A stretch of 23,130 nucleotides of DNA, taken from IMG/VR virus record IMGVR_UViG_3300046006_002567, positions 1-23,130 of that record; one strand, written 5' to 3'. The notes beneath the pieces were generated by a model, which saw only the letters and a list, made by a program, of their open reading frames with translations, had not been told where the DNA came from and did no database searches. Every line of letters starts with the position of its first letter. Positions within the stretch are counted from its first letter, which is position 1. The stretch comes from a virus. Below are positions 4,358 to 23,130 of this stretch, in pieces. The position numbers and the translations under genes are program-made.

Positions 4358-7300
4358 ATGGCTCTAAATTTTAACGTTGATCCTTACTATGATGATTTCG
4401 ATGATACAAAAAACTTTCATCGAATCTTATTCAAACCAGGTAAGGCAGTACAGGCCAGAGAATTAACACAGGCGCAAACGATTCTACAAGATCAGATTAC
4501 AAAGTTTGCCAATAACATATTTAAAGAGAATTCTCCCGTAACTGGTGGGCAGATTACAACCAATTTCAGTTGTTTTTATATTAAGTTACAAAGCACATAC
4601 AATGGTGCAACAATTGATGTTTCTGAATTTAATGGATTGCTTATAACAAATTCAACAGGTACAATTAAAGCAAAAGTTGTTGCTGTTGCACAAGCAACAG
4701 GTACCGCAGGTGAAGGTGATCCACCAACATTGATTGTTGTATATAAATCAGGCACACAATTTACCAATAATGATATCATATATGATGTAAATTCAAATAA
4801 AGCATGTCAAGCAATCACAAACAATTCAACCGGCCAATCTTCTGTAGTCTCTATTGCCAAAGGTGTTTTCTATGTACTTGGCAATTTTGTACAGATTGAA
4901 CCAACAACAATCGTTTTAAGTAAGTATGACAGCACACCATCAAGAAGGGTTGGTCTGGAAATTACCGAAACAATTTATGACTTTGCAAATGATGCATCGT
5001 TGTTAGATCCTGCGGTTGGCGCATCAAACTACCAAGCGCCAGGTGCAGACAGATACGTGATTAGTCTGGAACTTACAACAAAACCATTATATTTTGGTGA
5101 TGACCAATTCTTCATTGAATTACTTCGTATTGAAGAAGGTAATGTTTTCAAAATGGTTAATGGATCAGTCTATGCAGCAATTGATGATTATTTTGCAAAA
5201 CGTGACTATGAAACAAATGGTGATTACATTGTAAATGATTTCACTTTAACACCAAAGGTTGATCCTGATGATGAGGACAAGTACATAATGGGTGTTGGTA
5301 AAGGCCTTGCGTATGTGCATGGTTATCGTGTAGAGAATCCTTCACCTGTTAATTTGTCATCTAATCGTGCGAGATCAAACTCCTCTATAAACAACGACAA
5401 TACTATTATAAATTACGGTAGTTATTTTACGGTTGCAAATGTTGTTGGTGCAAATGCAAGAGCGTTTGAGATAACTACAGCAAATACAGTGGATTTCCAT
5501 TGTGTTGCATCAAGTGACGTTTATACAGCAAACGCAACAACATATAATTCTACACTTGTGGCCAGAGGTTATATTCGTGGATTGGATTTCCAAAGCAGCC
5601 CAGACAATTCTGATGCAAACACATATATTTACAAAGCTTTTGTAAATGATCTTCAAAACCAATCTTTGACGGGAACGGTTGTAAGTGCAGGTGCAAATAC
5701 AGTAGTGTTACCCGCAACTAATGGTAAAACATCTACAGTTAATGATGCATATATTGGTGTTGACATTTCAATTACTTCTGGAACAAATGCTGGTGAAACA
5801 AGAACTATTATAGGATATGTTGGTTCAACAAGAACTGCAACCGTAAATAGATCATGGAGTGTCACACCCGATAACACATCAACTTTTGCACTAAATTTTA
5901 ATACAGCTGATGTGGAATCCTTATTACAAATCGGTAGTGATTACACAATATACGGTAAAGCTAAGATCGACAATACAGGAAAACAAGGCAATTTGGCCAG
6001 CGGAGATGCAGTTTTCGAAAATCCAAATAAACCTGAATTAATTTTCACGTTAGGTTTACCACATGTTAAATCAATTACTGATGCATCATATACAACATAC
6101 ATAGAAAGTCGAGGTGTTGTTTTTGGTGCTTCTGGTGGTGATTTATCTGCAACACTGCCATTAACTGGAAGTTACTTGAATGTAATTAAACATTTAGGTG
6201 AAGGTGGTACTACACTTACTTCGGATTTGGTTGAAGAAAATTTCACAATTATTGTAACCAGTAAAGGTTCAAATTCAAAATTTGCTGTTGGTGATATTGT
6301 TCCATGGACAATATCTGGTAGAACAATTGATGTGAATAGTAATTTGTCTGTTGCAACATTAAAAACATTGACAAGTGATTTATCTGGATTTACAGCAACC
6401 ATTATTTACAAAGTTTTTGTACCTGTTGCAACGAATTCCAGTTTGATTTTGAAAATTAAAAATTTGGTTACAGCAAATGCTAATACAATTGTAACTGATG
6501 GAACACAAGTTGATACCTACACATATGTTGATGATGGTGGAACTTCTAGTGGTCAAGTTTTTATACAAGCGCCAGGTGTTCAACCACCCGGAACAAAACA
6601 ATCACTGTATTTGTCTGATGTGAAACGTGTTGTAAAAATTATCGACACTAAAAATAATTATACATTACCTACAACAGCAATGTATACTGATTCAACATAT
6701 AATGTTACGAATAATTATATATTTGATAATGGTCAAAAAGATGGTTATTATGACCACGCTTCGATTACTTTAAAACCTGGTGCACCTAAACCGGCCGGAC
6801 ATTTACACGTTTATGTTGATTACTACAAACATTCTGGTGGTGACGGATACTTTAGTAAAATGTCATACGTGGACGCTTCAAATGCACCAGAAAATTACAG
6901 AGAAATTCCAAATTACACAAGTAAAAATGGAACAACATATTCATTAAGAGATTGTTTAGATTTTAGACCATCTAGAGTAAATGCTCAATCAAATTTTATT
7001 TTCCGTTTTTCTAATCCATCAGACACAAGATTTGGTTCACTATTACCTGTAGATTCTTCAAGTTTCATTTGTGACTATGAACATTATCTTGGTCGTAAAG
7101 ATAAATTAATTTTAACCAAAGATAGAAGTCTACAAATAATTGAAGGTTCATATTCCATTAATCCAATTTTACCTAATGAACCAGATTCTTCATTGACGAT
7201 AGCAAATATCACACATAATCCATATACTGGTTATATAACCACAGAAGTTCCACCAGGTAAACTACCAGATTTGTCTATTGATAAGGTACAACACCGCCGT

Positions 7301-10300: not shown

Positions 10301-10789
10301 GGTTCTGCTGCTGGTGCATCTGCAATCATAACAGGTGAAACTTCTGTTAATGGTGGTCCTGCTGCAACAAGATATATAACCAAGAAGGTTGTATTGGATG
10401 CAGGATTCGATTCTGGTGATTTGAATGTTTATTTGACTGCTTATCGTCCAAATGGAACAGATATATTAGTATATTACAAAATTTTGAATAGAAATGATAC
10501 TCAAGGTTTTGCTGACGGTTCTTGGAAGTTGATGACAAAAACTAGAAGTTCGGATACATTATATTCTAAATTTAGAAATGATCTACATGAATATACTTTT
10601 GCGCCAGGAAGTTTGGGTGTAGATCAAGGTTATGTTTCTTATACCTCAACTAATGGCCAAACATACAATTCGTTCAATCAATTTGCAATCAAGATCGTTT
10701 TGGTGACCACAGATAAGACTATAGTTCCACATTTAACAGACATGAGATGTATTGCATTGCCTTCAAACATCAATAGTTCAATTGGTTGA
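4358..10789 (+). CDS. Giant DUF4815-type virion structural protein
   Basis: A 2143-residue protein, the largest product in the window. The N-terminus has the hallmark of the DUF4815 phage family: YYDDFDDTKNFHRILFKPG, then QARELTQAQTILQDQ and TGGQ (residues about 10-67). Around residues 909-1040 is the second conserved core (YLGRKDKL, VQHRRYTMADI, DTRINRVEYYTSLNSLEQ, GLNRFKNGIMVDDFSG). Residues about 1600-1705 look like a jelly-roll module that may bind carbohydrate (FPNGAFISTIRVFFASKPTS). Residues about 1914-1996 hold the GGxSY/GSGY beta domain. The C-terminal 145 residues (ITKKVVLDAGFDSGDLNVY ... MRCIALPS) are, from memory, typical of this family in T4-like aquatic phages. A beta domain is duplicated internally at about residues 438-512 and 1393-1469. 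AAGGGA at 4347-4352 supports ATG 4358. Its exact place in the virion (baseplate periphery or fibre base) is not shown by sequence. Confidence 0.85.
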   Translation: MALNFNVDPYYDDFDDTKNFHRILFKPGKAVQARELTQAQTILQDQITKFANNIFKENSPVTGGQITTNFSCFYIKLQSTYNGATIDVSEFNGLLITNSTGTIKAKVVAVAQATGTAGEGDPPTLIVVYKSGTQFTNNDIIYDVNSNKACQAITNNSTGQSSVVSIAKGVFYVLGNFVQIEPTTIVLSKYDSTPSRRVGLEITETIYDFANDASLLDPAVGASNYQAPGADRYVISLELTTKPLYFGDDQFFIELLRIEEGNVFKMVNGSVYAAIDDYFAKRDYETNGDYIVNDFTLTPKVDPDDEDKYIMGVGKGLAYVHGYRVENPSPVNLSSNRARSNSSINNDNTIINYGSYFTVANVVGANARAFEITTANTVDFHCVASSDVYTANATTYNSTLVARGYIRGLDFQSSPDNSDANTYIYKAFVNDLQNQSLTGTVVSAGANTVVLPATNGKTSTVNDAYIGVDISITSGTNAGETRTIIGYVGSTRTATVNRSWSVTPDNTSTFALNFNTADVESLLQIGSDYTIYGKAKIDNTGKQGNLASGDAVFENPNKPELIFTLGLPHVKSITDASYTTYIESRGVVFGASGGDLSATLPLTGSYLNVIKHLGEGGTTLTSDLVEENFTIIVTSKGSNSKFAVGDIVPWTISGRTIDVNSNLSVATLKTLTSDLSGFTATIIYKVFVPVATNSSLILKIKNLVTANANTIVTDGTQVDTYTYVDDGGTSSGQVFIQAPGVQPPGTKQSLYLSDVKRVVKIIDTKNNYTLPTTAMYTDSTYNVTNNYIFDNGQKDGYYDHASITLKPGAPKPAGHLHVYVDYYKHSGGDGYFSKMSYVDASNAPENYREIPNYTSKNGTTYSLRDCLDFRPSRVNAQSNFIFRFSNPSDTRFGSLLPVDSSSFICDYEHYLGRKDKLILTKDRSLQIIEGSYSINPILPNEPDSSLTIANITHNPYTGYITTEVPPGKLPDLSIDKVQHRRYTMADIAGLDTRINRVEYYTSLNSLEQNANSLQISDAYGLNRFKNGIMVDDFSGFSASDAGVTDFNANINRRTRQMTAGQIVKNFPLKNLAMVYNMNSPTTASIAALNYNVTRDGSVNYFTLPYTTTNLVSQKLASRTTNVNPFNTPFAKGNLALSPNMDTWVDTTYSPALLVVDPNLQVYQRGNVNNTLAFGDWQTVPGTSATSLQSQTSSPWATISNSVGWTGGTTGLQQTTIQNSTLSSTYITKFKEQQSNVVGPYNKIDNTYALNNGYINDISILPWIKPQQITIIASGLLIKTKLNAFFDNINVNAYVRKLNTIEVESVTGTFKAGEIIGYFSSGTFTPTAKIVGVYNYTDTTKMRLYVSNDFKTTTYNNSLALQNGFFNASGVYQSSTASGSVVATQFNNSSEHYSGTLKDSTSLTSIQLSPLASSVNDFYNGLTIYITSGTGAGQSAVISDYVGSTKVATLATPITVASVVGLPDKETYSIGSTTGSIETNERGDFFGVFTVPANSFHTGQKVFRLDNRINNNAATVSTYAEGTFYAEGLQVNKQNIDFGASPSGAKDTFRQTLYKDSSYTTNTSEVQSRRIVTDLEPPPPWTGDPVAQTFQIDPTNFPNGAFISTIRVFFASKPTSTNDGSPITLSIVGTLNGYPNGVTLDHAVATLDPTKVRVSSTPQYLDTNAYTEFTFSSPVYVQSGVLYAFMVKSSSNEYTLWTASNNEEALPSTVKNLPTDPYPSSITKISAAHYVGGLFLSQNSQTWEADQNQNLMFTIERCVFNTAVTPSIRMVIPKKLPQRTLVDSEIDYYKNANTMTDLILTTSNSDILVDAFNISTTDFVPSSTSINYNYDATLQNGTSAGQVGINPGKYGTTMYDHIHLDDNQGERVLFANSETSFSLYGQLYSQDNAVSPVISDAGTTVFTVQYDINNCPLSNSLISIVSGGTSYATGNTTVTVSPPTGKNGMQAYASQTIVNGVITSIYLTDVGSGYIETPTVSINVSGGSAAGASAIITGETSVNGGPAATRYITKKVVLDAGFDSGDLNVYLTAYRPNGTDILVYYKILNRNDTQGFADGSWKLMTKTRSSDTLYSKFRNDLHEYTFAPGSLGVDQGYVSYTSTNGQTYNSFNQFAIKIVLVTTDKTIVPHLTDMRCIALPSNINSSIG

Positions 10790-10791
10790 TT

Positions 10792-11013
10792 ATGACATAT
10801 TTGAAAGTTGAAGGTACAAAATTGGTGAGAGATACCAGAAGCGGTGCAATTATAAATCAAGATAAAAATGGTTTAGATGAGTATTTGAATAAGCGCCGGG
10901 CATTAGAGTCTCAAAAAAACGAAATAAATAATGTTAAGTCTGAGGTTAAAGAACTCAGAGAAGATATAACGGAAATAAAAAGTTTGTTATTAAAACTATT
11001 AGAAAAAGGTTAA
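10792..11013 (+). CDS. Small conserved coiled-coil protein of the structural operon
   Basis: The product has 73 residues beginning MTYLKVEGTKLVRDTRSGAI. The first 35 residues (YLKVEG, LVRDT, GAIIN, DEYL) look like a short globular motif that I remember from tiny proteins in T4-like aquatic phages. The rest is a charged helix (about residues 36-71, ESQKNEINNVKSEVKELRED) with leucine/isoleucine/valine spacing of a coiled coil. I chose ATG 10792, two bases after the upstream stop; a TTG at 10786 in the same frame would add two residues but is less likely. No strong Shine-Dalgarno is visible, so translational coupling to the giant gene is likely. The function is unknown. Its position between the giant virion protein and a fibre suggests a minor structural or assembly role. 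Confidence 0.8.
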   Translation: MTYLKVEGTKLVRDTRSGAIINQDKNGLDEYLNKRRALESQKNEINNVKSEVKELREDITEIKSLLLKLLEKG

Positions 11014-11014
11014 A

Positions 11015-14000
11015 ATGGCTAATACAGTATCCTCATTAAGTTATGCCAATACATTTGGTGATTGGATGGTTGCGACCAACAATTTAGTTATAGAAAATAA
11101 CATTATTGCCAAAGAAAATTATGTCAAAGATTCTGGAACTTTATATCTTTCAGAAAGTTCACAAACAGCCTTACAATCAAACGGTAATGTTATTATACAG
11201 AAAGTATTCTCTGTTCAAGGCATAGGTTCTTCTGCATCAATTCAAAACAATTTAGATGTTCAGGGTCAAGGATATTTTACAAACGTAAATTTAAGTCTTG
11301 CAACAACAGGTAATGCAAATGTTGGTAAAACTTTGGAAGTTTTAGGTACAGGTAATGCACTATTAGTTTCAAACAATGCTATAATTGGTGGTAATGTTGC
11401 AATATCATATGCAACCATCACAAGAACACTACAAGCAAATAATACTGTTAATACATCATACGCTTCAATATACAATACATTGTTTACTGATAAATTGCAA
11501 GCAAACACTAGCACTTTGACTGGTATAGCTGTTGCAAATAGTTCCGTTTTTACCAACTATCTACAATCCAATACAAACATATTAACAGCAGCACTACATT
11601 CAAATAATCAGATTAGCACTACATCCGCTTCTGTAACAGGTACTACTTGGACAAATGTGCTGCAAGCAAACAATTCCACAAATACATCAAATGCAAATAT
11701 AGTTTGGACAGTATCAGCAAATGCTGTGCAAGCGCATGTTTCAGTAAACACATCCAATGCATCTGTTGTACATACAACTTATACAAATTTCTTGCAAGCC
11801 AATACTTCAACAAACACATCAAATGCAAGTATAGTTTGGACTTTGTATGCGAATAATGTTCAGGCCAATGCAACAGTTAATACAACAACAGCTTCTATTA
11901 CTGGAACAACATTTACTGATAAATTACAAGCCAATACACAAGCAAATACACAAACACTTTCTGTATCCGAAACTGCATTTGTTAATATATTAGAAGCTAA
12001 TAGTGCGGTCAATACAACCACATTATCAGTGTTTAGTACTTCACACACTGAGGTATTACAGGCCAATTCAGCTGCTAATACTAGAACAATGTCTGTTACT
12101 GGTGTAACGCATACTGATGTGTTACAAGCCAATTCAGCTGCTAATACTAGAACAATGTCTGTTACTGGTACTACACATACCAATGTGTTACAGGCTAATA
12201 GTGCAGCCAATACTAGAACAATGTCTGTTACTGGTACGACACATACCAATGTGTTACAGGCTAATACATTAGCCAACACCGAAACAATGACAGTTACTGG
12301 TACCACACATACGGATGTGTTACAGGCCAATTCTGCGGCTAACACTAGAACCATGTCGGTTACTGGTACGACACATACAGATTTGTTAGTAGCAAATACT
12401 AGAATTAATACAGTAAATGTTTGGTCGACCCATACAGTAACGGCAAATACAATAAGAGCAAATTCTGATGTTTTCACACCAAATGTCAGAGTTTCAGAAT
12501 TAATTGATGCTGAAGATGCTGAAGCAAGAGTTTATAACCTACAGGTTGGTGAAGGTGGTTTGAGTATTGCTGGCAACTTCACACTTAATGGAAGAACAGT
12601 ATTTAATTCAAATGAATTTATTATAAGTCAAGGAACACCAAATCAAACATCAAAATTTAGTGTTTTCAGAACAGCTAATGGTGCGGCAAATGGTGTTGCA
12701 TCGAATGCATCTATTCGTTGGAATGAAACAGATAATTATTTTGATCTAAATGACGTTAGTGATGGAACATATTATAGAATTATTACCGAACAACAACTCA
12801 CTGGTTCAACAACAACAGTAAGTTCAGTGTTGGCCGCATCAGCCACAGCGGCAAACACATTAAACGATGCAATACAAACAGCGAATACTTTCTTAAAAGC
12901 AAGAGTAGATTCTTCTGATTCATTTGCTAACGGTGCATTTGTTAGAGCCAATTCATCTTATTTGTCACAAAACATTACAGCAGTATTTGCAAATGCTGGT
13001 TTTGCACATGCAAATGCTTCTTTCGCTGCAGCAAACAATGTTGGACCACAAATTGAACCAGCACATGCAAAAGCTAATGCGGCTTTTTCAAAGGCTAATG
13101 CTGCAACATCTGAGATTAAAGGAACAACAGGTTCAATATCACCAACTGATGCATCATTGACATTCACATCTAATAACGGTGTACAAATTTATGCAACTGC
13201 TGCAAACACCTTAGCAATCAGCACATCACAAGATTTGCGGACTACTGCAACTCCGTCATTTTCTTCATTGACATTACCTGGAGCTCCATTGCCAATATCA
13301 TCTGGTGGTACTGGTTCAACATCAGCTTCATCAGCTTTCAATACACTGGTTGCGGCCGCAACTGCCACACCAAACCCAACTTCAGGTTATGTTCTTGCAA
13401 CTACTGGTACAGGTTTTTATTGGACTGCTGCTGGTGCAGGTGGTGCAGGTACACAACCTGGTACTAGAATTACATCTAATAGATTATCTTATACTGGTGA
13501 TGGTACAACAACAATTTATACAACACCAACATTCAGTCAGGCCAACCAAGTTAGAGTGTATATTAATGGTGTTCGTCAATTAGAATCTGAATATAGTTTA
13601 AATTCTGGTACATCTAGAGTGACAATGACTGTTGCACCAGTTCTTAATGACAAGATATTGGTCGAAGTAGATGGTTATGCAGTATATGAATATTTTGCAA
13701 ACAATATCGTATACGGACCTGGAACAGGTGCTCTTTCAGCAGGCACAATCCAAAGCGCAATTGACGGTTTAGAATCTGGTAAGATGCCAAAAACTGGCGG
13801 CACATTTACAGGCGATGTTATTGGTTTAACGATGCCAACGGCTACATCAAACTCATCATTTGCAACAACATCTTTTGTTAATAGCCTTGCAAATTCTTCT
13901 TATACATTCTCACATAGTATAACAGGAAATGCGGGTACAGTAACAAATGGATTAGTTTCAACAGGAACTTATACAAATCCAAGTTGGATATCAAGTATTA

Positions 14001-15115
14001 GTGCAAGTAAGTTATCTGGTGGCACAATTAGTAGTACAATACTAGAAAATTCATCCGTCTTTATTGGCACAACTTCTATTCCACTCAATCGTGCATCGGG
14101 CGGATCACACACATTGAATGGTGTATCTATTGATGGTAATGCTGGTACAGTTGGTAGTTTAGGAATAAACACGATTCACACAAACGCTGAAGCTAACAAA
14201 CTTGTACGAACCGATTCAACAGGAAATACTATTATAAAAACTATAGTTTCCTCTACACATGATAAAATTGCGGCAACTCCAGTTTATGTCATGGCTTCGA
14301 ATAGTACTGGTACATTTGCAAACGTCACATCATATCAAACATCTTATTTAAGAGTTCAATATGCAGACACAGCAGGTTCAGCAGGTTCAGCACCAGCTTC
14401 TGATGTGTATACATGGGCAAAAGCCGCAACGAAGCCATCATATACCAAAGCTGAAGTTGGTTTGGGTAGTGTAGATAATACAGCAGATTCAACCAAATCA
14501 GTAAGTTATGCAACCACAGCAGGAAGAGCATACCCAAGACGCAGTGATGGTGGTGATTTAAATTTCTATTGGTCTGGTCAATCTGGTCAACCAACTTGGT
14601 TATGGGGCGGTACTGATGGTGTAAACATGTATGTTTATAATCCATCAAACTTCTCAGTAAACTATGCTGCCAGTGCTGGCAGTGCTGGCAGTGCGGGTAC
14701 ATTCACTAGCACAAGTCAAAACTCACAGTTCAATTCATTAGGTATTGGTACTGCGGCGTCAACAACAGCCGGAGAAATTCGTGCAACCAATAACATTACT
14801 GCTTATTACTCTGATGACAGATTAAAAACCAAACTTGGTAATATTGAAAATGCACTTGACAAAATAGACCAACTAACTGGATTCTATTATGAAGAAAATG
14901 AATTGGCAGAATCATTGGGATATAAAAAACGCCGTCAAATAGGTGTATCGGCACAACAAGTACAAAAACAACTACCTGATTGTGAAGTCGTTGTACCTGC
15001 ACCAATTGATGAAAATTATTTAACAGTGCGATATGAAAAATTGATTCCATTATTAATTGAAGGTATTAAAGAATTGAAAGCTGAAGTGGAAACATTAAAG
15101 GGACAAATTAAATGA
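11015..15115 (+). CDS. Long tail fibre with 22-residue repeats and C-terminal S74 chaperone domain
   Basis: A 1366-residue trimeric fibre or adhesin is likely. Residues 1-138 form the head. Residues 139-457 are an exact 22-residue tandem array. Residues about 636-700 hold the Asn/Ala 7-residue stalk (SFANGAFVRANSSYLSQN). At about residues 820-900 lies a GDGTTTIYTT ... VYINGVRQLESEY domain. Near residue 1130 is ASDVYTWAKAATKPSY followed by GLGSVDNTADS, a common phage fibre segment. Residues about 1266-1366 are the intramolecular chaperone of endosialidase type (peptidase S74): S1266-D1267-D-R-L-K, then ALDKIDQLTGFYYE, the QIGVSAQQVQ segment and a terminal helix. In that family the domain drives trimerisation and is released by self-cleavage at the conserved Ser-Asp. 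AAAAAGG just before ATG 11015 supports the start. Its stop overlaps the next start. Confidence 0.9.
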   Translation: MANTVSSLSYANTFGDWMVATNNLVIENNIIAKENYVKDSGTLYLSESSQTALQSNGNVIIQKVFSVQGIGSSASIQNNLDVQGQGYFTNVNLSLATTGNANVGKTLEVLGTGNALLVSNNAIIGGNVAISYATITRTLQANNTVNTSYASIYNTLFTDKLQANTSTLTGIAVANSSVFTNYLQSNTNILTAALHSNNQISTTSASVTGTTWTNVLQANNSTNTSNANIVWTVSANAVQAHVSVNTSNASVVHTTYTNFLQANTSTNTSNASIVWTLYANNVQANATVNTTTASITGTTFTDKLQANTQANTQTLSVSETAFVNILEANSAVNTTTLSVFSTSHTEVLQANSAANTRTMSVTGVTHTDVLQANSAANTRTMSVTGTTHTNVLQANSAANTRTMSVTGTTHTNVLQANTLANTETMTVTGTTHTDVLQANSAANTRTMSVTGTTHTDLLVANTRINTVNVWSTHTVTANTIRANSDVFTPNVRVSELIDAEDAEARVYNLQVGEGGLSIAGNFTLNGRTVFNSNEFIISQGTPNQTSKFSVFRTANGAANGVASNASIRWNETDNYFDLNDVSDGTYYRIITEQQLTGSTTTVSSVLAASATAANTLNDAIQTANTFLKARVDSSDSFANGAFVRANSSYLSQNITAVFANAGFAHANASFAAANNVGPQIEPAHAKANAAFSKANAATSEIKGTTGSISPTDASLTFTSNNGVQIYATAANTLAISTSQDLRTTATPSFSSLTLPGAPLPISSGGTGSTSASSAFNTLVAAATATPNPTSGYVLATTGTGFYWTAAGAGGAGTQPGTRITSNRLSYTGDGTTTIYTTPTFSQANQVRVYINGVRQLESEYSLNSGTSRVTMTVAPVLNDKILVEVDGYAVYEYFANNIVYGPGTGALSAGTIQSAIDGLESGKMPKTGGTFTGDVIGLTMPTATSNSSFATTSFVNSLANSSYTFSHSITGNAGTVTNGLVSTGTYTNPSWISSISASKLSGGTISSTILENSSVFIGTTSIPLNRASGGSHTLNGVSIDGNAGTVGSLGINTIHTNAEANKLVRTDSTGNTIIKTIVSSTHDKIAATPVYVMASNSTGTFANVTSYQTSYLRVQYADTAGSAGSAPASDVYTWAKAATKPSYTKAEVGLGSVDNTADSTKSVSYATTAGRAYPRRSDGGDLNFYWSGQSGQPTWLWGGTDGVNMYVYNPSNFSVNYAASAGSAGSAGTFTSTSQNSQFNSLGIGTAASTTAGEIRATNNITAYYSDDRLKTKLGNIENALDKIDQLTGFYYEENELAESLGYKKRRQIGVSAQQVQKQLPDCEVVVPAPIDENYLTVRYEKLIPLLIEGIKELKAEVETLKGQIK
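11429..12385 (+). repeat. Exact-length 22-residue (66-bp) tandem repeat array
   Basis: Fourteen in-frame units, each starting with (L/V)(Q/E)(A/S)N or similar, start at 11429, 11495, 11561, 11660, 11726, 11792, 11858, 11924, 11990, 12056, 12122, 12188, 12254 and 12320. The third unit is 33 residues, so the total is 319 codons (14 x 22 + 11). Units 10-14 (12056-12385) are nearly the same at DNA level (LQANSAANTRTMSVTGTTHT), so the 3-prime end was amplified most recently. Confidence 0.9.
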
Positions 15116-16577: not shown

Positions 16578-16919
16578 ATGCCAGCTGGTTACCAAGAATT
16601 ATTTCTAGAACAAGGTTCAAACTTTAGTACATCCATTTCTTTGGACCAGGCTGATGGTTCACCTTTTGTTTTAACTGGTAGCGAAGTAAAAGCTGCCATG
16701 AAAAAATCATACTATTCTAGTAGCACAACTGCAAACTTTGTGGTACAAGTTAATGATCCAACAGAAGGTGTTATACTTTTAACTTTACCATATGCAAACA
16801 CCGCAAACATTTCTGCTGGTCGTTATGTGTATGATGTGGTTATCAAAGATTCTTCAAACACAGTAATACGTGTTTTAGAGGGAGTTGTGAACGTTTTACC
16901 TCAAGTTACAGTATTTTAA
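16578..16919 (+). CDS. Small BppU-like Ig-type virion protein
   Basis: The product has 113 residues. It opens MPAGYQELFLEQGSNFSTS, followed by PFVLTGSEVKAAMKKSYYSSS, a TLPYANTANISAGRYVYDV core and VLEGVVNVLPQVTVF. The pattern 'tolerates a thiol-free G-S-F-S-T strand, then transverse L-T-G, then A-G-R-Y-V-Y-D-V, then V-x-E-G-x-V-x-V-x-P' resembles the N-terminal domain of phage baseplate upper proteins (BppU), and small standalone copies are, from memory, common in T4-like aquatic phages. It is probably a beta-sandwich docking protein at the base of fibres. It is the first gene after the TATAAATA late promoter, with a clear AAGGGG ribosome binding site. It ends 9 bases before the next gene, a pairing that suggests the two products act together. 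The fold assignment comes from motif similarity only. Confidence 0.75.
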   Translation: MPAGYQELFLEQGSNFSTSISLDQADGSPFVLTGSEVKAAMKKSYYSSSTTANFVVQVNDPTEGVILLTLPYANTANISAGRYVYDVVIKDSSNTVIRVLEGVVNVLPQVTVF

Positions 16920-16928
16920 AGGAATAAA

Positions 16929-17462
16929 ATGGCGACCGTAACTGTTACACAACCAGCAACTATAAAAGTTAGAGTTGAAGGCCAGAAAACTAAAGTACAG
17001 ACGTTATCCTATGGTACCAAAACACTTAGGAGTTTAACTGACCTTAGTTTAGTTGGTGCAAACACGGGTGATGTGATTGTATACAATTCACAAACCAAAA
17101 CATTTTCTGCCAAAGGCCTTGGTACCGATACTCCTGTACATGGAAATCTATTACCAACACAGTCAAGAACATTTGACCTTGGTAGTAGAACAAATAAATT
17201 CCGAAGTCTATTTCTAAGTGGTAACACAATTGACTTGGATGGTACAGTAATTAAAGCTGATGAAGTTTCTGGTGCAATATCTTTTGCTGCACGTCCAACT
17301 GAAACACAACCAAATCCAATCGCTATTGTTGTATCTCCGATTGGTGGTTTTGTACCTGTTCAGACTGTTGCTGGTGTAATTCCAGAACAAGCAATTCAGG
17401 CCGCAATAGCAAACTCAGTAACGTATTTGGCTTTCCAGGGTGCTGATTCCGGTTTCTTTTAA
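16929..17462 (+). CDS. Fibre-like structural protein ending in DSGFF
   Basis: The product has 177 residues. Residues about 1-50 are a basic beta-rich start (TIKVRVEGQKTKVQTLSYG, then LTDLSLVGANTGDVIVYNS, a turn motif I recall from phage fibres). Residues about 75-105 contain FDLGSRTNKFRSLFLSGNTI, a recognisable phage fibre motif, followed by KADEVSGAISF. The last residues are ADSGFF, a variant of the D-G-G-x-F ending found in the next three genes. AAAGGA at 16918-16923 overlaps the upstream stop and supports ATG 16929. The stop is immediately adjacent to the next ATG with no gap, so translation is probably coupled. The likely role is a fibre-base or adaptor component; no enzymatic motif is visible. 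Confidence 0.8.
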   Translation: MATVTVTQPATIKVRVEGQKTKVQTLSYGTKTLRSLTDLSLVGANTGDVIVYNSQTKTFSAKGLGTDTPVHGNLLPTQSRTFDLGSRTNKFRSLFLSGNTIDLDGTVIKADEVSGAISFAARPTETQPNPIAIVVSPIGGFVPVQTVAGVIPEQAIQAAIANSVTYLAFQGADSGFF

Positions 17463-17696
17463 ATGGCAAATACATCAATACAAATTCTCCGTTCATATGC
17501 GAACACCGCACCTGGCAATCTAGCAGACGGAGAATTAGCTTATTCCTTTCTTTCCAATACACTTTTTATTGGTAGTTCCACATTAAATGTGCAAAGTCAA
17601 TTGTGGACCAACAATATTATTAGCATTGGTGGATCAGAATATATCAGTAATGTTATTTTAAATACGGTTAGCGATTTTGACGGTGGCACGTTTTAA
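17463..17696 (+). CDS. 77-residue mini adaptor with DGGTF ending
   Basis: The N-terminus, MANTSIQILRSYANTAPGNL then ADGELAYSFLSNTLFIGS, matches the start of the 642-residue fibre two genes' width downstream (MANTALRIRRS ... NLAAGEIAYSYASNTMFIGS). Both follow the pattern of the N-terminal domain of major tropism determinant and related phage fibres (basic strand, then L-x-x-G-E-x-A-Y/G, then a short strand ending in I-G). About 30 residues later it stops with FDGGTF. The protein therefore holds an adaptor domain and the shared C-terminal tag with almost nothing between. It may be a capping or competing subunit, or a shortened fibre. It begins directly at the previous stop. No strong ribosome binding site is visible, so coupling is likely. 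Confidence 0.78.
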   Translation: MANTSIQILRSYANTAPGNLADGELAYSFLSNTLFIGSSTLNVQSQLWTNNIISIGGSEYISNVILNTVSDFDGGTF

Positions 17697-17702
17697 TAAA
17701 TA
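17695..17702 (+). promoter_or_regulatory. Late promoter-like AATAAATA
   Basis: This matches NATAAATA. It overlaps the stop codon of the 77-residue gene and lies 42 bases before ATG 17745, leaving room for a leader of about 30 bases. The ribosome binding site AAGGA is at 17732-17736. Confidence 0.55.
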
Positions 17703-17709
17703 GATCATA

Positions 17710-17721
17710 GGATTTAAATCC
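17710..17721. other. 12-base palindrome GGATTTAAATCC
   Basis: A perfect inverted repeat in the leader between the AATAAATA element and the 642-residue fibre gene. Without a loop it is unlikely to fold as RNA. It could be a protein-binding site or chance in AT-rich DNA. Confidence 0.25.
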
Positions 17722-17744
17722 AATTAACAACAAGGATAATAATA

Positions 17745-19673
17745 ATGGCAAATACAGCACTAAGAATTAGACGTTCCCTTACCACAGGCATGCCGGCCAA
17801 CCTGGCAGCTGGTGAGATAGCATACTCATATGCATCAAATACCATGTTTATTGGATCACCTGCTGGTACAGGTGTTCTTAATATTGGTGGGCAATATTAC
17901 ACCTCAACTATAGATAGTGCAACCAGTTCAAATACTGGAGGCACACTTGTTCAACGTAGTGCATCTGGTAACATTGCTGTTGGCCACGCAAACGTTAGAA
18001 GTCTTAGTTTCTCTGACGGCGGTTCATTAAGTACCACTTCTTTCTCGGGTAATGCAAACTCTGCAACGCAATTTGAAACCGACAGATTTATTGATATTAC
18101 TGGTGGTGATATTACTGCTGCTGCACAATTGTATGATGGTACTGCAAATGCAACATTGAGTGCTACACTTAACACTGTTGCTGGTCTAACTGCTGGTACT
18201 TATGGTGGAACAACAGTTATACCTGTAATTCAAGTAGCTGCAAATGGCCGTGTTATGGTCATTGCCAATTCGTCAACAATTTCAACTGCATTGACTGTTG
18301 CAGCTGATTCTGGTACAGCTGATGTTGTTAATCTAGCAACCGACACACTTACAATTGCTGGTGGTGCAGGCCTTACATCAACTGTAACAAACAATCAAGT
18401 AACTATTGATGTTGACACTACAGTCATTCGTGCAAATACACCAAGTATGAGACAAACCATTGATGGTGACCTTATCATCAGTGGTAACGTATCCATTTTA
18501 GGTAACTCTACAGTATACAACGTTGAAACGCTTAGTGTTGAAGACTCATTGATTGCACTTGGTAAAAACAACACATCTGATGCAGTTGATATTGGTTTCT
18601 ACGGCCACTACAACAATGGTGCAGACCGTCATGCAGGTTTGGTGCGTAATGCTGGTGATGGTTTCTTCTATTTGTTTGACAACTATAACATAGAACCAAC
18701 AGGTAACGTTATTAACGTTGCGGATGCAAGCTTCCGTCAAGCAAACTTGAAGTCCAACTTAATTGCAGCATATGCTAATACAACTCAAGCAAACGTTGGA
18801 ACTCTATTTGTTGCCGGCACCGCACAAATTAAATCATTAACACTAACTGATGACTTAACAGTACCTAACGGTGGTACTGGTGCAAGTTCATTCACTGCTG
18901 GTTCTATTCTTGTTGGTGATGGCACGAACTCATTAAAAGAACTTTCTAATACAACCTTTGTTGCAACACAAAGCGGACCAACATCAGGCACACAAAACAA
19001 TACCATTACATCTGTAACAGTAGATTCATATGGTAGATTCACTGCGGCCACATTCAATCAAATTTCTGGTCTAACAGTTGGTCAAGGTGGTACCGGTAAA
19101 TCTACCTTCACCACAGGTAAAATTGTTATTGGTAATGGCACAGGTGGTTTGGATGAACTTGCTAACGTAACATACACATTGACTGGTACATTAGGTGCTG
19201 CTAAAGCAATCACTTCACTAACAGTAGATGCTTATGGTCGTGTATCAGCAGCAACAGCTGAAGATATTGCTGGTCTAACTGTTACACAAGGCGGTACCGG
19301 TGCATCAACATTAAGTGCAGGTGGTTTGTTAATTGGTAACGGAACAGGTGCAATTTCTACACTTGCTAACGTAACATACACATTGACTGGTACATTAGGT
19401 GCAGCTAAGACAATTACATCGTTGACTGTTGATGCATACGGCCGTGTAAGTGCTGCAACTGCGGCTGACATTTCAGGTCTGACTGTTGCACAAGGTGGTA
19501 CTGGTGCTTCTACATTCACTTCAAAAGGTATCGTTTACGGTGATGGCACAAATGCACTAGCAGTTACCTCTGCTGCAGGCACATCAGATCAAACATGGTC
19601 TAATCAGATTCTTACAACAACAGATGCAGGTGTACCAGTTTGGTCATCCACAATAGATGGAGGACAATTCTAA
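17745..19673 (+). CDS. Tail fibre with adaptor head, HYNNGA domain, VDxYGR repeats and DGGQF ending
   Basis: The product has 642 residues. Residues 1-45 form the adaptor head (IRRSLTTGMPANLAAGEIAYS, MFIGS). Residues 46-235 are beta-rich with a VAANGRV element. Residues about 240-350 form a domain containing SVEDSLIALGKNN, DIGFYGHYNNGADRHAGLVR and NVADASFRQANL; a paralogue occurs in the 21319 gene. Residues 373-607 are a 68-72-residue repeat with NGGTGAS/QGGTG(A/K)S followed by GNGTG and TVDAYGRVSAAT. The protein ends in TIDGGQF. This is a typical low-complexity phage fibre and no enzyme motif is seen. AAGGA at 17732-17736 fits ATG 17745, and a late promoter-like AATAAATA lies upstream. The near-identity of the two middle repeats indicates recent duplication. 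Confidence 0.87.
   Translation: MANTALRIRRSLTTGMPANLAAGEIAYSYASNTMFIGSPAGTGVLNIGGQYYTSTIDSATSSNTGGTLVQRSASGNIAVGHANVRSLSFSDGGSLSTTSFSGNANSATQFETDRFIDITGGDITAAAQLYDGTANATLSATLNTVAGLTAGTYGGTTVIPVIQVAANGRVMVIANSSTISTALTVAADSGTADVVNLATDTLTIAGGAGLTSTVTNNQVTIDVDTTVIRANTPSMRQTIDGDLIISGNVSILGNSTVYNVETLSVEDSLIALGKNNTSDAVDIGFYGHYNNGADRHAGLVRNAGDGFFYLFDNYNIEPTGNVINVADASFRQANLKSNLIAAYANTTQANVGTLFVAGTAQIKSLTLTDDLTVPNGGTGASSFTAGSILVGDGTNSLKELSNTTFVATQSGPTSGTQNNTITSVTVDSYGRFTAATFNQISGLTVGQGGTGKSTFTTGKIVIGNGTGGLDELANVTYTLTGTLGAAKAITSLTVDAYGRVSAATAEDIAGLTVTQGGTGASTLSAGGLLIGNGTGAISTLANVTYTLTGTLGAAKTITSLTVDAYGRVSAATAADISGLTVAQGGTGASTFTSKGIVYGDGTNALAVTSAAGTSDQTWSNQILTTTDAGVPVWSSTIDGGQF
18861..19565 (+). repeat. 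68-72-residue tandem repeats (about 204 bp) in the fibre
   Basis: Units start at 18861 (72 codons), 19077 (68) and 19281 (68), with a truncated fourth at 19485-19565. Each opens with V-x-x-G-G-T-G-x-S and contains G-(D/N)-G-T and VD(S/A)YGR. Units 2 and 3 share TYTLTGTLGAAK and ITSLTVDAYGRVSAAT exactly, with synonymous changes in the DNA. Confidence 0.88.
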
Positions 19674-19690
19674 AGGCTGACTATATAATG
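19661..19690 (+). promoter_or_regulatory. Weak sigma70-like promoter before the coiled-coil gene
   Basis: TATAAT at 19685-19690 has an AGGACA (4 of 6 match to TTGACA) at 19661-19666, with an 18-base spacer. It lies 31 bases before ATG 19722, in one of the few real gaps. No NATAAATA element is present here, so this gene could be expressed differently. AT-rich DNA gives such matches by chance, so confidence is low. Confidence 0.25.
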
Positions 19691-19721
19691 TAATAGATTT
19701 TTTTTATGATAGGAGTTTGAA

Positions 19722-20477
19722 ATGGCAAATGAGAAGTATTTAAATTATTATATTGAGACAATGACAAGCACATTAACAGATTGTGTGGTTCGAAATATCT
19801 CAATGCAAGCAAATGCAAAAATAACTGATGAGGTTGTTAAAGAACAGACTGAGAAAATTGATAATTTAAAGTTGATGAATAGTGAACTACAATCTATGAT
19901 TGTGGAACTAAAAGATACCAATGCATCAAATGAAAGTACAACTGTTCTAGAATTGAAAAATACATTGTTGGAAAGTGAAAAACTTGTAACAAAATTAAAT
20001 AACGATGTTAATGAATTAAGTAACAAACATCGTGCCGAAATTGATGTATTGACAAGTAAGTTTCGTGATTATGATAGTGTTAAGAATCAAGCTGGTCATG
20101 TGGAAACATTTAAAGGTGAATTGATTAGAGCAAGAGAAGAGGTTAATCAGGTTCGTTCAGAACTTGAGAATAAAATCAATTCTCTTACATCTGAAAATAC
20201 TGGAAAAATTAATGCGTTAACGGAACAGAATGAAAAGACTGTTGCATCATTATTGAAACAGAATGAAGATACTGTTAATAATTTGATTCAAAAACATGAA
20301 ACTGAAAAGAGTGAATACAACAATAAGATAGATGAATTAATTGCTAAAATTGATTACTTACAACTACCTCCTTCCAAAAGAAAAAAAATTGATGAGCTGA
20401 ATAAAGAAGTGGAACCAACAACTTTAACAAGTTTAATTGGTACCAATGGCCCAGTCAAAGATGGCGGAACGTTTTAA
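19722..20477 (+). CDS. Coiled-coil protein with DGGTF ending
   Basis: The product has 251 residues. The N-terminus (MANEKYLNYYIETMTSTLTD, then VVRNISMQANAKI) is a short conserved-looking head that I recall from T4-like aquatic phages. Residues about 40-225 are a long, charged, heptad-rich helix (IDNLKLMNSELQSMIVEL, and repeated SLTSENTGKINALTEQNEK with sibling segments at about residues 150-190), plus a segment HVETFKGELIRAREEVNQVR. Residues 226-251 are a flexible tail with basic PPSKRKK, ending PVKDGGTF. It is not a fibre by composition (Lys/Glu-rich, no beta repeats), yet it carries the same C-terminal tag as three neighbouring fibre-like genes. It has a strong AGGAG ribosome binding site at 19711-19715 and its own 48-base upstream gap. 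A scaffold, linker or fibre-assembly chaperone is a reasonable guess, not shown by sequence. Confidence 0.82.
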   Translation: MANEKYLNYYIETMTSTLTDCVVRNISMQANAKITDEVVKEQTEKIDNLKLMNSELQSMIVELKDTNASNESTTVLELKNTLLESEKLVTKLNNDVNELSNKHRAEIDVLTSKFRDYDSVKNQAGHVETFKGELIRAREEVNQVRSELENKINSLTSENTGKINALTEQNEKTVASLLKQNEDTVNNLIQKHETEKSEYNNKIDELIAKIDYLQLPPSKRKKIDELNKEVEPTTLTSLIGTNGPVKDGGTF

Positions 20478-20481
20478 GTAA

Positions 20482-20961
20482 ATGTCAAACACAGCAATAC
20501 AGTTAAAAAAATCAGGCGCAACGGGAAACACACCATCAGGACTATCCTATGGTGAGTTAGCACTCAACTACGCCGATGGTAAACTGTATTATAAAAATGG
20601 TTCTGGTGGCACTTCTTACATAAGTAACCAATTCTCTTTTGATACAATCAATGCCAACAGTTCTTTAATATTGGCCACAAGTGGTTCAGACACATTGTCT
20701 TTTATTGCTGGTAATAATATAACCATCAGTACAAATACAACCACAAAAACAATCACAATCAATGCATCAATTGCTGGCGGCAGTGATCCTGGTCCTGCGT
20801 TTGACAGGGCTAATGCAGCATATGCATCACAAAACATCACGGCGGCGTTTGCTAATGCAGCTTTCATTCATGCCAATGCAGCTTTCGATAAGGCAAACAC
20901 GGGCACAACCGCACTTGATGTAAATGCCGACATTGTTGCTTTCACTATCGCCTTTAGTTGA
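20482..20961 (+). CDS. Short adaptor-plus-stalk virion protein
   Basis: The product has 159 residues. Residues 1-45 are the third copy here of the adaptor head (MSNTAIQLKKSGATGNTPSG, LSYGELALNYADGKLYYKNG). Residues about 46-95 are a beta-rich segment (SFIAGNNITISTNTTTKTIT) typical of phage fibre necks. Residues about 108-145 hold four blocks of the Asn/Ala 7-residue stalk (AYASQNITAAFANAAFIHAN). The end is DIVAFTIAFS, so it lacks the DGGxF tag. It starts 4 bases after the coiled-coil gene's stop with no clear ribosome binding site, so coupling is likely. It looks like a shortened version of the larger fibres and could be an accessory fibre or a fibre base. Confidence 0.8.
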   Translation: MSNTAIQLKKSGATGNTPSGLSYGELALNYADGKLYYKNGSGGTSYISNQFSFDTINANSSLILATSGSDTLSFIAGNNITISTNTTTKTITINASIAGGSDPGPAFDRANAAYASQNITAAFANAAFIHANAAFDKANTGTTALDVNADIVAFTIAFS

Positions 20962-21318: not shown

Positions 21319-23130
21319 ATGGAATTTAGTTACATTGGCAATCAAAGTAAGAAGGATGTAAGGTTAGCAGGTTCATTTGCCAACGGTGCATTTGTAACTG
21401 CTAACTCAGCAGCCTCATTTGCCAATGGTGCTTTTGATAGGGCTAATGCTGCATATAATGCTGCAAATACCAGCAGTACAGATTCATATGCAAGAAATAC
21501 AGCTAATGCTGCATTTGTTACTGCAAATTTGGCATACAATACCATATTTACCAGTAACAATACTGCGGCTTTATATTACATAACCAGAAACTTTACTGGT
21601 GATGGTAACACCAATACATTTACAATTTCGTCCAATACATCAGCAAACAGTATTCTTGTTTTTGATAATGGTATTACACAAAATCCAATAGTTGATTATA
21701 GTGTATCAGGAAACAATATTATTTTTGTGGATGCTCCGGCAAATGGAACAATAATACAGATACGTGAGTTATTGAGTAATGTTCCAGTAGTTACGGACAA
21801 TTCCAATTCGGCATTCGATAGAGCTAATGCTGCATATGCAACTGCTAATGCAGCTTTCAATGCGGCAAATACTGGTAGTTCTAGTACAGATTCATATGCA
21901 AGAAATACAGCTAATGCTGCATTTGTTACTGCAAACTCAGCCGCATCATTTGCCAATGGTGCATTCGATAGAGCCAATGCGGCCTATAATGCCGCCAATA
22001 CAGCTACAGATTCTTGGGTTAGAACTCAAGCAAACAATGCTTACGATACAGCCAATTCATCTGGATCATTTGCTAATGGTTCTTTCGTTACAGCCAACGC
22101 AGCAGCCACTTTCGCTAATAGTGCATTTGATAGAGCTAACGCAGGATACAATGCAGCAAACTCAGCAGCCGCATTTGCTAATGGTGCTTTCACAACAGCA
22201 AATTTAAAATTCAACTCATCTGGTGGCACAATTTCTGGTGATGTTTCTATCACAGGTAACCTAAGTGTACTAGGTAATACATTTAGTACCAGTGCCACAC
22301 AGATTGTTGCTAATGATACTCTGTTTATTATGGGAACAGGAAATTATTCAGGTGATGTACTTGATATTGGTTTTGCGGCACACTATAATAATGGCGCCAA
22401 TGCACATACTGGATTGATAAGAGATTCTGGTACCAAAGAATGGCAACTGTTTGAAGAATATACTCCAGAAGTTGGTTCAAACAACAATATTAACATTACG
22501 GATGCATCATTCAAAATATCAACGTTAAATGCAAATGTAAAATCAACAACTATATTGATAAAAAATATTGATGTATTGCCTTACATAAACAATGCATATG
22601 CAGCTGCAAATTCTGGTGCATCATTTGCTAATGGTGCTTTTGATAGAGCCAATGCAAGTTATGGTGTAGCAAATACAGGTTCTAGTTTTGCCAATGGTGC
22701 TTTTTTAACAGCTAATAGTGGTGCATCTTTTGCCAACGGTGCATTTGTAACTGCTAACTCAGCAGCCTCATTTGCCAATGGTGCTTTTGATAGGGCTAAT
22801 GCTGCTTATGCAGCTGCAAATACTGGTAGTTCTAGTACAGATGCATATGCAAGAAATACAGCTAATGCCGCATTTACAACAGCCAATTTAGCTTACAGTA
22901 CAATTGTTACCGCCAGTAATAGTGCGGCAATTTATTATACAAGCAGAAATTTTACAGGTGATGGAAATACAAATACATTTACAATATCAGCTAACACAAC
23001 AGCTAATAGTATTCTTGTATTTGATAATGGTATCACACAAAATCCAGTAGTTGATTATAGTGTATCAGGAAATACCCTTACATTTGTTGAAGCACCAGCA
23101 AACGGAACAATAATTCAAGTTCGTGAATTA
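21319..23130 (+). CDS. Large modular tail fibre, C-terminus beyond the window (partial)
   Basis: The frame is open from ATG 21319 to the right edge, 604 codons with no stop. Residues about 1-75 are a short start (MEFSYIGNQSKKDVRLAG) and the Asn/Ala 7-residue stalk. Residues about 90-151 are a FTGDGNTNTFTIS ... VFDNGITQNP(I/V)VDYSVSGN domain. A second stalk follows (about 155-295). Residues 302-412 are a copy of the HYNNGA domain of the 642-residue fibre (GNLSVLGNTF, DVLDIGFAAHYNNGANAHTG). A third stalk comes next, then a second copy of the FTGDGNTNTF domain at about 545-604. The ATG is one base after the previous stop, with only a weak GGA upstream. It is a fibre by composition, and its tip, which would decide receptor type, is not visible. 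Confidence 0.87.
   Translation, partial: MEFSYIGNQSKKDVRLAGSFANGAFVTANSAASFANGAFDRANAAYNAANTSSTDSYARNTANAAFVTANLAYNTIFTSNNTAALYYITRNFTGDGNTNTFTISSNTSANSILVFDNGITQNPIVDYSVSGNNIIFVDAPANGTIIQIRELLSNVPVVTDNSNSAFDRANAAYATANAAFNAANTGSSSTDSYARNTANAAFVTANSAASFANGAFDRANAAYNAANTATDSWVRTQANNAYDTANSSGSFANGSFVTANAAATFANSAFDRANAGYNAANSAAAFANGAFTTANLKFNSSGGTISGDVSITGNLSVLGNTFSTSATQIVANDTLFIMGTGNYSGDVLDIGFAAHYNNGANAHTGLIRDSGTKEWQLFEEYTPEVGSNNNINITDASFKISTLNANVKSTTILIKNIDVLPYINNAYAAANSGASFANGAFDRANASYGVANTGSSFANGAFLTANSGASFANGAFVTANSAASFANGAFDRANAAYAAANTGSSSTDAYARNTANAAFTTANLAYSTIVTASNSAAIYYTSRNFTGDGNTNTFTISANTTANSILVFDNGITQNPVVDYSVSGNTLTFVEAPANGTIIQVREL
21376..21771 (+). repeat. First copy of a duplicated stalk-plus-GDGNT module
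   Basis: This is a direct repeat of 22729-23130, offset by 1353 bases at its start and 1359 after a 6-base insertion in the second copy. The first 77 bases (21376-21452) are identical to 22729-22805; the rest is similar with many synonymous changes. Confidence 0.9.
22729..23130 (+). repeat. Second copy of the duplicated stalk-plus-GDGNT module (cut by window end)
   Basis: See the copy at 21376-21771. The 6 extra bases encode two more residues in the Gly/Ser-rich linker before TDAYARNTANAAF. The repeat continues past the window edge at the same point in the domain (IIQVREL against IIQIREL). Confidence 0.9.

Follow-up and report, generated by a model that had tools for sequence, protein, structure and literature searches.

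Four consecutive genes in a stretch of uncultured viral DNA encode proteins with nearly identical C-terminal pentapeptides, which raises the question of what a peptide shared by such dissimilar proteins is for. The window analysed here (the whole 23,130-nucleotide contig, called with a simple longest-ORF rule) is viral DNA with T4-like baseplate genes, and the tagged genes are neighboring tail-fiber genes of an uncultured T4-like phage. The first-pass annotation had reported ends of the form D-(G/S)-G-x-F on these four proteins, written in different codons in each copy and absent from the other products; all four were found where it had placed them, the four codon strings do differ, and no further product of the window has such an end. 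The relevant features are as follows.

At 2981: gp8 (PHROG 438, E 3e-83, and Pfam Phage-Gp8)
At 4358: DUF4815/VrlC-type protein, 2143 aa
16578..16919, + strand: 113-aa LtfC/p132-like collar protein, which opens the module and ends, without a tag, in PQVTVF; PHROG 3304, PHROG 1084 and p132 profile match
16929..17462, + strand: adaptor, 177 aa, with C-terminal tag; N-terminal part common to the short adaptors of cultured phages (alignment)
17445..17459, + strand: tag DSGFF of the adaptor (proposed plug 1); GAT TCC GGT TTC TTT TAA (17445-17462 including stop)
17463..17696, + strand: mini segment, 77 aa, with an IKRS-type N-terminal domain and a tagged tail predicted to be disordered (alignment, AlphaFold)
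17463..17600, + strand: IKRS domain of the mini segment (proposed socket; end approximate); HMM match, Foldseek
17679..17693, + strand: tag DGGTF of the mini segment (proposed plug 2); GAC GGT GGC ACG TTT TAA (17679-17696 including stop)
17745..19673, + strand: fiber segment, 642 aa, with IKRS domain, repetitive stalk and tag; 63 tagged homologs
17745..17900, + strand: IKRS domain of the fiber (proposed socket; end approximate); HMM match
19656..19670, + strand: tag DGGQF of the fiber (proposed plug 3); GAT GGA GGA CAA TTC TAA (19656-19673 including stop)
19722..20477, + strand: coiled-coil protein, 251 aa, with predicted helix 3-213, KRKK motif and disordered tagged tail, and without an IKRS domain (alignment, AlphaFold)
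20460..20474, + strand: tag DGGTF of the coil (proposed extra plug); GAT GGC GGA ACG TTT TAA (20460-20477 including stop)
20482..20961, + strand: untagged protein of 159 aa, the last in the module with an IKRS domain and proposed to be the distal segment or its start; HMM match, same untagged position in the loci examined

Three further products of the window touch on its fiber genes. A 75-aa protein (10786-11013; ..KVEG..L.R...) belongs to a family located between the VrlC/DUF4815 gene and the fiber genes, and occurring in T4-like phages regardless of whether they carry the tag. It is followed by a separate, untagged fiber of 1366 aa (11015-15115), the C-terminus of which resembles a peptidase-S74-type intramolecular chaperone. 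At the other end of the window, a fiber-like protein with FANGAFDRANAAYNAAN repeats (21319-23130) runs off the contig.

The tag is conserved in hundreds of related fiber proteins. Across about 120 related loci, collected in two IMG/VR scans, the commonest C-terminal pentapeptides are DGGSF, DGGTF and DGGQF, with DAGFF and DSGFF close behind, and the proteins that carry them belong mainly to the families of the four genes in the window. The tags are very similar in all of these families, and are absent from the neighboring LtfC-like (0/63) and 108-aa (0/59) families. Of 3,351 proteins, 171 end in the strict form DGGxF, and the same motif occurs internally at 15 sites over 947,281 residues (near-identical sequences being partly retained). 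Amino-acid composition predicts 0.07-0.10 ends of the type D.G.[FY] per genome of about 230 genes, compared to four consecutive ones here, and chance or composition as the origin of the tag was therefore rejected. Proteins outside the module do not carry such ends equally often: in six large relatives (G001-G006) the sole additional family ending in D.G.[FY] is one membrane protein, found in two genomes. This predicted membrane protein (MIFLT...YYS...) ends in DAGKF or DGGKF (G001:129636-130814, G003:80398-81426), by chance or as a second user of the tag.

Conservation of the terminal residues is clearest in the coiled-coil family, 65 of 66 homologs of which are tagged. After thinning to <70% identity over the last 30 residues, the D, the second G and the F are invariant and at the extreme C-terminus in all 34 remaining sequences, with about 4.3 bits at each of these positions compared to about 1 bit in most preceding ones; the 20 residues before the tag are nearly random, and the tag is thus kept while the preceding sequence drifts. 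A protease recognition end, one of the roles initially suggested, is not supported, because the tag stays at the extreme C-terminus throughout these divergent coils. Several tags in related loci (DGGTFS, DAGNFS, DGGTYS; L013, L018, L051, L059, L081, L196) have one more residue after the aromatic, which therefore need not be the final residue. In both proteins modeled with AlphaFold, the mini segment and the coil, the tag is located on a tail predicted to be disordered (pLDDT <50; residues 68-71 and 74-76 of the mini segment), as might be expected of a linear motif whose folding is coupled to binding. A conserved motif on a variable, predicted disordered tail also has the hallmarks of a short linear docking motif with a putative binding function. 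Taken together, a conserved C-terminal docking tag on the proteins of the fiber module is strongly supported; we found no description of a DGGxF-type end tag in open-access papers.

The protein encoded directly upstream of the tagged genes, at 16578, matches PHROG 3304 ("L-shaped tail fiber protein assembly," E 3.6e-17) and PHROG 1084 (E 3e-22). Its family profile matches the PDB chains of T5 p132 (7qg9, E 5.3e-8) and of an L-shaped tail fiber assembly protein (8hqz, E 9.4e-8), which the single sequence reached at E 0.65-0.77. As judged from these profiles, the first protein of the module is a sequence homolog of the T5 p132/DT57C LtfC collar. The LtfC profile also matches chain M of PDB 26dk, a 197-aa "Structural protein" (E 1.3e-7), and this virion could show a related collar.

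A tagged adaptor directly follows LtfC in the related loci, and an adaptor comes next in about half of a wider set of LtfC loci. Alignment of the adaptors gave the consensus VRVG....KV...L.DVD..GL.DG.VLVY......, followed by the tag. In cultured phages, short adaptors of this kind directly follow LtfC in P-HM1, MED4-213, Mosig, Melnitz-2, S-CAM9, ACG-2014f and S-CAM7, as well as in S-SRM01, S-SKS1, Sf-CH5, S-T4, S-8S56 and DSL-LC02. Two LtfC-anchored scans yielded 57 further complete adaptors of 66-959 aa, 50 of which end in [DN]xGx[FY], rising to 56 with relaxed letters (SGGxF/Y, EGGSF, DYGGF), against 1 of 50 LtfC neighbors of non-adaptor types; the tag remains terminal as the adaptor lengthens from 66 to 959 aa. 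Some adaptors have S/T-G-G-x-F/Y tags (LSGGSF, ISGGTY, ITGGIF; L475, L477, L481, L484, L489, L396), and the fibers of these loci mostly end in DGGTF, DGGTY or similar. Adaptors that precede a mini segment end in D-(A/S/M)-G-x-F in 37 of 38 cases, and the adaptor tag subtype (GG or A/S/M-G) tracks the class of the next segment (Fisher 6e-8, raw table); on the LtfC tree, however, just two changes of class occur, and the covariation is no more than suggestive. In one locus (L077:7068-9959) an untagged 714-aa adaptor is followed by an unrelated 248-aa protein ending in DGGGF, whose tail (TTNNFTANAITVDGGGF) matches that of a 370-aa tagged protein from another locus (L069), indicating that a swapped end module carries the tag along with it.

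The four tagged proteins had been described as otherwise different. This does not apply to the 77-aa and 642-aa proteins, which share an N-terminal domain with each other and with the untagged 159-aa protein (alignment, HMM). We refer to it as the IKRS domain after its consensus, M..T.I.IKRS...P..L..GE.A.....LF.G; no Pfam or NCBIfam model matched the IKRS N-termini tested. A Foldseek search of BFVD with the model of the mini segment (mean pLDDT 74) retrieved viral proteins annotated as "Major tropism determinant N-terminal domain" (best E 7e-3, TM about 0.5), with no match at E<=0.001 among PDB structures. A search of the PDB returned no useful relatives of the adaptor, mini segment or fiber. 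The fiber homologs of P-HM1 (PHM1_093) and MED4-213 also end in DGGTF.

The order of the genes follows a simple grammar. In 56 of 65 distinct LtfC-anchored loci (counting two where gene calling missed the small adaptor) the genes run from LtfC through a tagged adaptor and one or two IKRS proteins with tags to the coil and, last, an untagged IKRS protein; the other nine are explained by contig ends, by missed small genes or gene-calling artifacts, or by one replaced adaptor (that of L077). The last IKRS protein in the chain is untagged in the cultured genomes and in the loci examined.

The number of tags also corresponds to the number of IKRS domains when complete genomes of cultured phages are scanned with a model built from uncultured loci only. 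Among those without a long coil, tags and IKRS domains co-occur one to one: 1:1 in S-T4, Sf-CH5, S-SKS1 and ACG-2014f, 2:2 in S-8S56, Mosig, Melnitz-2, DC31 and P-HM1, and 0:0 in the tag-less BUCT-ZZ01, S-CREM2, S-ShM2 and HTVC008M (a few regex matches with an extra last residue were taken as chance). DSL-LC02 has a ratio of 2:1 plus one fiber socket (IRFKRG) too divergent for the independent model. In S-T4, Sf-CH5, S-SKS1 and ACG-2014f the IKRS fiber lies about 80-100 kb from the adaptor, and the association is therefore more than gene neighborhood. In a wider set, a strong IKRS match was found in 14/14 tagged and 0/10 untagged phages (Fisher 5e-7, ignoring kinship), with weak relatives of the domain in three tag-less phages (S-ShM2, S-CREM1, HTVC008M); for six unlinked phages with domains absent from the model, the corresponding value is 1e-4, again ignoring kinship. 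The Limnohabitans phage DC31, whose genome is 76 kb, has the same module; its adaptor ends in ESGQY and its fiber in DGGTY. When all 121 DC31 proteins were used in iterative searches of 20 phylogenetically non-independent genomes (16 tagged, four complete and untagged), the IKRS domain was the sole family present in 16/16 tagged and 0/4 untagged genomes. LtfC was found in 16/16 and 2/4, and the remaining families common to all 16 were also found in 4/4 untagged genomes.

Since the family that tracks the tag is an N-terminal domain repeated on successive segments, the most likely role of the tag is to connect consecutive segments head to tail, and not to bring four proteins to one site. The earlier proposal of a docking tag for one partner thus holds for the docking tag on module proteins and fails for the single partner. 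We think it probable that the tag acts as a C-terminal plug and fits the IKRS socket of the next segment in a daisy-chained lateral fiber, and we infer the contact between tag and IKRS domain, the trimeric state and the order along the fiber from the observations above. On this model, D-(G/A/S)-G-x-(F/Y)-COOH would be a C-terminal short linear motif on the segments of LtfC/p132-type lateral tail fibers. The LtfC-like protein would form the collar in which the N-terminus of the adaptor is anchored, and the free C-terminal tails of the adaptor, presumably three per trimer, would fit into the IKRS domain of whichever segment follows, be it a mini segment or a fiber. Each segment's own tag would in turn enter the IKRS domain of the following one until the last, untagged segment terminates the chain, and the fiber would be a daisy chain of exchangeable trimers governed by one plug-socket code.

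The same co-occurrence data bear on the alternative that every tagged C-terminus docks to the same partner and that this is not the IKRS domain but, for example, a fiber-assembly chaperone or a hub in the baseplate or neck. The strong similarity of the tags in all families would fit a single binding site, as would the co-occurrence of tag and module with LtfC in all tagged genomes tested, and the coil carries a tag with no socket of its own to pair with. However, in the DC31 profile the IKRS domain alone fits all tagged and no untagged genomes, and a single hub leaves both the matching numbers of tags and IKRS domains and the untagged last segment unexplained. LtfC itself is present without tags in HTVC008M, S-CREM2, S-SSM7, P-TIM68 and S-CAM1, which weakens its candidacy as the partner of the tag. 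We consider a common partner unlikely. Less likely still is a partner-free function as a structural end-cap or register element closing a trimeric stalk: the tag often follows the stalk motif ILT..G.P.W...[IL]DGGxF in adaptors and fibers, but it is equally invariant on the disordered tail of the coil and on the mini segment, both of which lack this motif, and the terminal segments, which are also fibers, do without the tag.

The tag residues could also be dictated at the level of nucleic acid, by a Shine-Dalgarno sequence or translational coupling, or by a shared DNA segment. GGNGGN is Shine-Dalgarno-like, and certain adaptors and coils have GGA codons 9-13 bases upstream of the next start. 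The mini segment and fiber genes, in contrast, end about 50 bases from a start that has its own Shine-Dalgarno-like sequence, a Shine-Dalgarno function does not account for the Asp, the Phe and the Ala/Ser/Met variants, and the synonymous codons of the tag vary between and within families. A Shine-Dalgarno sequence or copied DNA segment was therefore rejected, largely on the codon data and also on the spacing, and such an origin seems to us extremely improbable. Where the next start is close, the GGA codons of coils and certain adaptors may at the same time contribute to a Shine-Dalgarno sequence.

The coiled-coil protein does not fit the one-to-one pairing: in loci with a long coil, tags exceed sockets by one. 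It is predicted to be a single long helix with a conserved KRKK region ahead of the tail, it had no tblastn match in cultured phages, and matches in the PDB were to generic coiled coils only. Within the plug-socket model the extra plug may, speculatively, belong to an assembly chaperone or a clamp for the distal socket. More specifically, its tag could be a case of molecular mimicry, in which a fiber chaperone comparable to T4 gp57A would bind or block the distal IKRS socket before the tag of the fiber arrives. In line with this, the coil lies between the fiber and the distal IKRS gene in nearly all of its loci, short untagged coils occupy the same place in P-HM1 and DSL-LC02, and in one lineage the gene is kept after loss of the tag (G005, ending in KDIFKK). 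Yet a search for homology to known chaperones found none, and the coil could equally be a structural link; we therefore regard mimicry as a tentative addition to the plug-socket model that is rather doubtful at present. Coil relatives or coil-like proteins without a full tag also include two of 65 and 68 aa (L218:6816-7013 and L002:20232-20438, ending in EDFS and PDDF) and a coil of 170 aa (L074:11674-12186, ending in KDIFKK).

The hosts within reach of a phage are determined by its lateral fibers, most components of which carry the annotation "hypothetical" in the abundant marine and freshwater T4-like phages. If the plug-socket model is correct, the order of fiber parts could be read from sequence, including cases in which tens of kilobases separate the genes, the exchange of segments would be explained, and a directly testable joint would be provided. 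Whether a C-terminal DGGxF/Y and an N-terminal IKRS domain form a general code, by which T4-like phages of cyanobacteria, SAR11, methylophiles and freshwater bacteria and the distant Limnohabitans phage add, lose and swap segments, with the coil mimicking the plug in assembly, appears to us an evenly balanced matter.

Several known systems resemble parts of this arrangement. The Foldseek hits suggest a tentative connection between the mini segment and viral proteins that bear the Mtd N-terminal annotation, a possible likeness of predicted fold only, with no Pfam domain detected at the IKRS N-termini tested. In the receptor-binding proteins of Klebsiella phage KP32 (PMC13082707), as proposed here, a short peptide docks one fiber or spike protein on another. 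There, an N-terminal peptide docks on a T4 gp10-like branching domain, whereas the peptide described here is the extreme C-terminus of every non-terminal segment and is paired with the N-terminal domain of the next. The bead-chain neck fiber gp82-gp81-gp80 of A-1(L) (PMC10966104) is a head-to-tail chain of trimers, such as we propose here. Its proteins attach to the neck and not via LtfC, and as gp80, gp81 and gp82 have no tag at their ends, these fibers were rejected as users of the tag. A further relationship is with T5 p132, which has the BppU N-terminal fold (PMC10038345), and with DT57C, where the N-termini of the fibers donate beta-strands to a dodecameric LtfC ring (PMC10713586). The module shares with these systems its first protein, directly followed by the adaptor, and by analogy with DT57C the N-terminus of the adaptor probably donates strands to LtfC. 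T5 has one fiber protein and DT57C a branched arrangement with LtfB attached via LtfA, whereas the segments described here look linearly chained, each non-terminal one ending in the tag.
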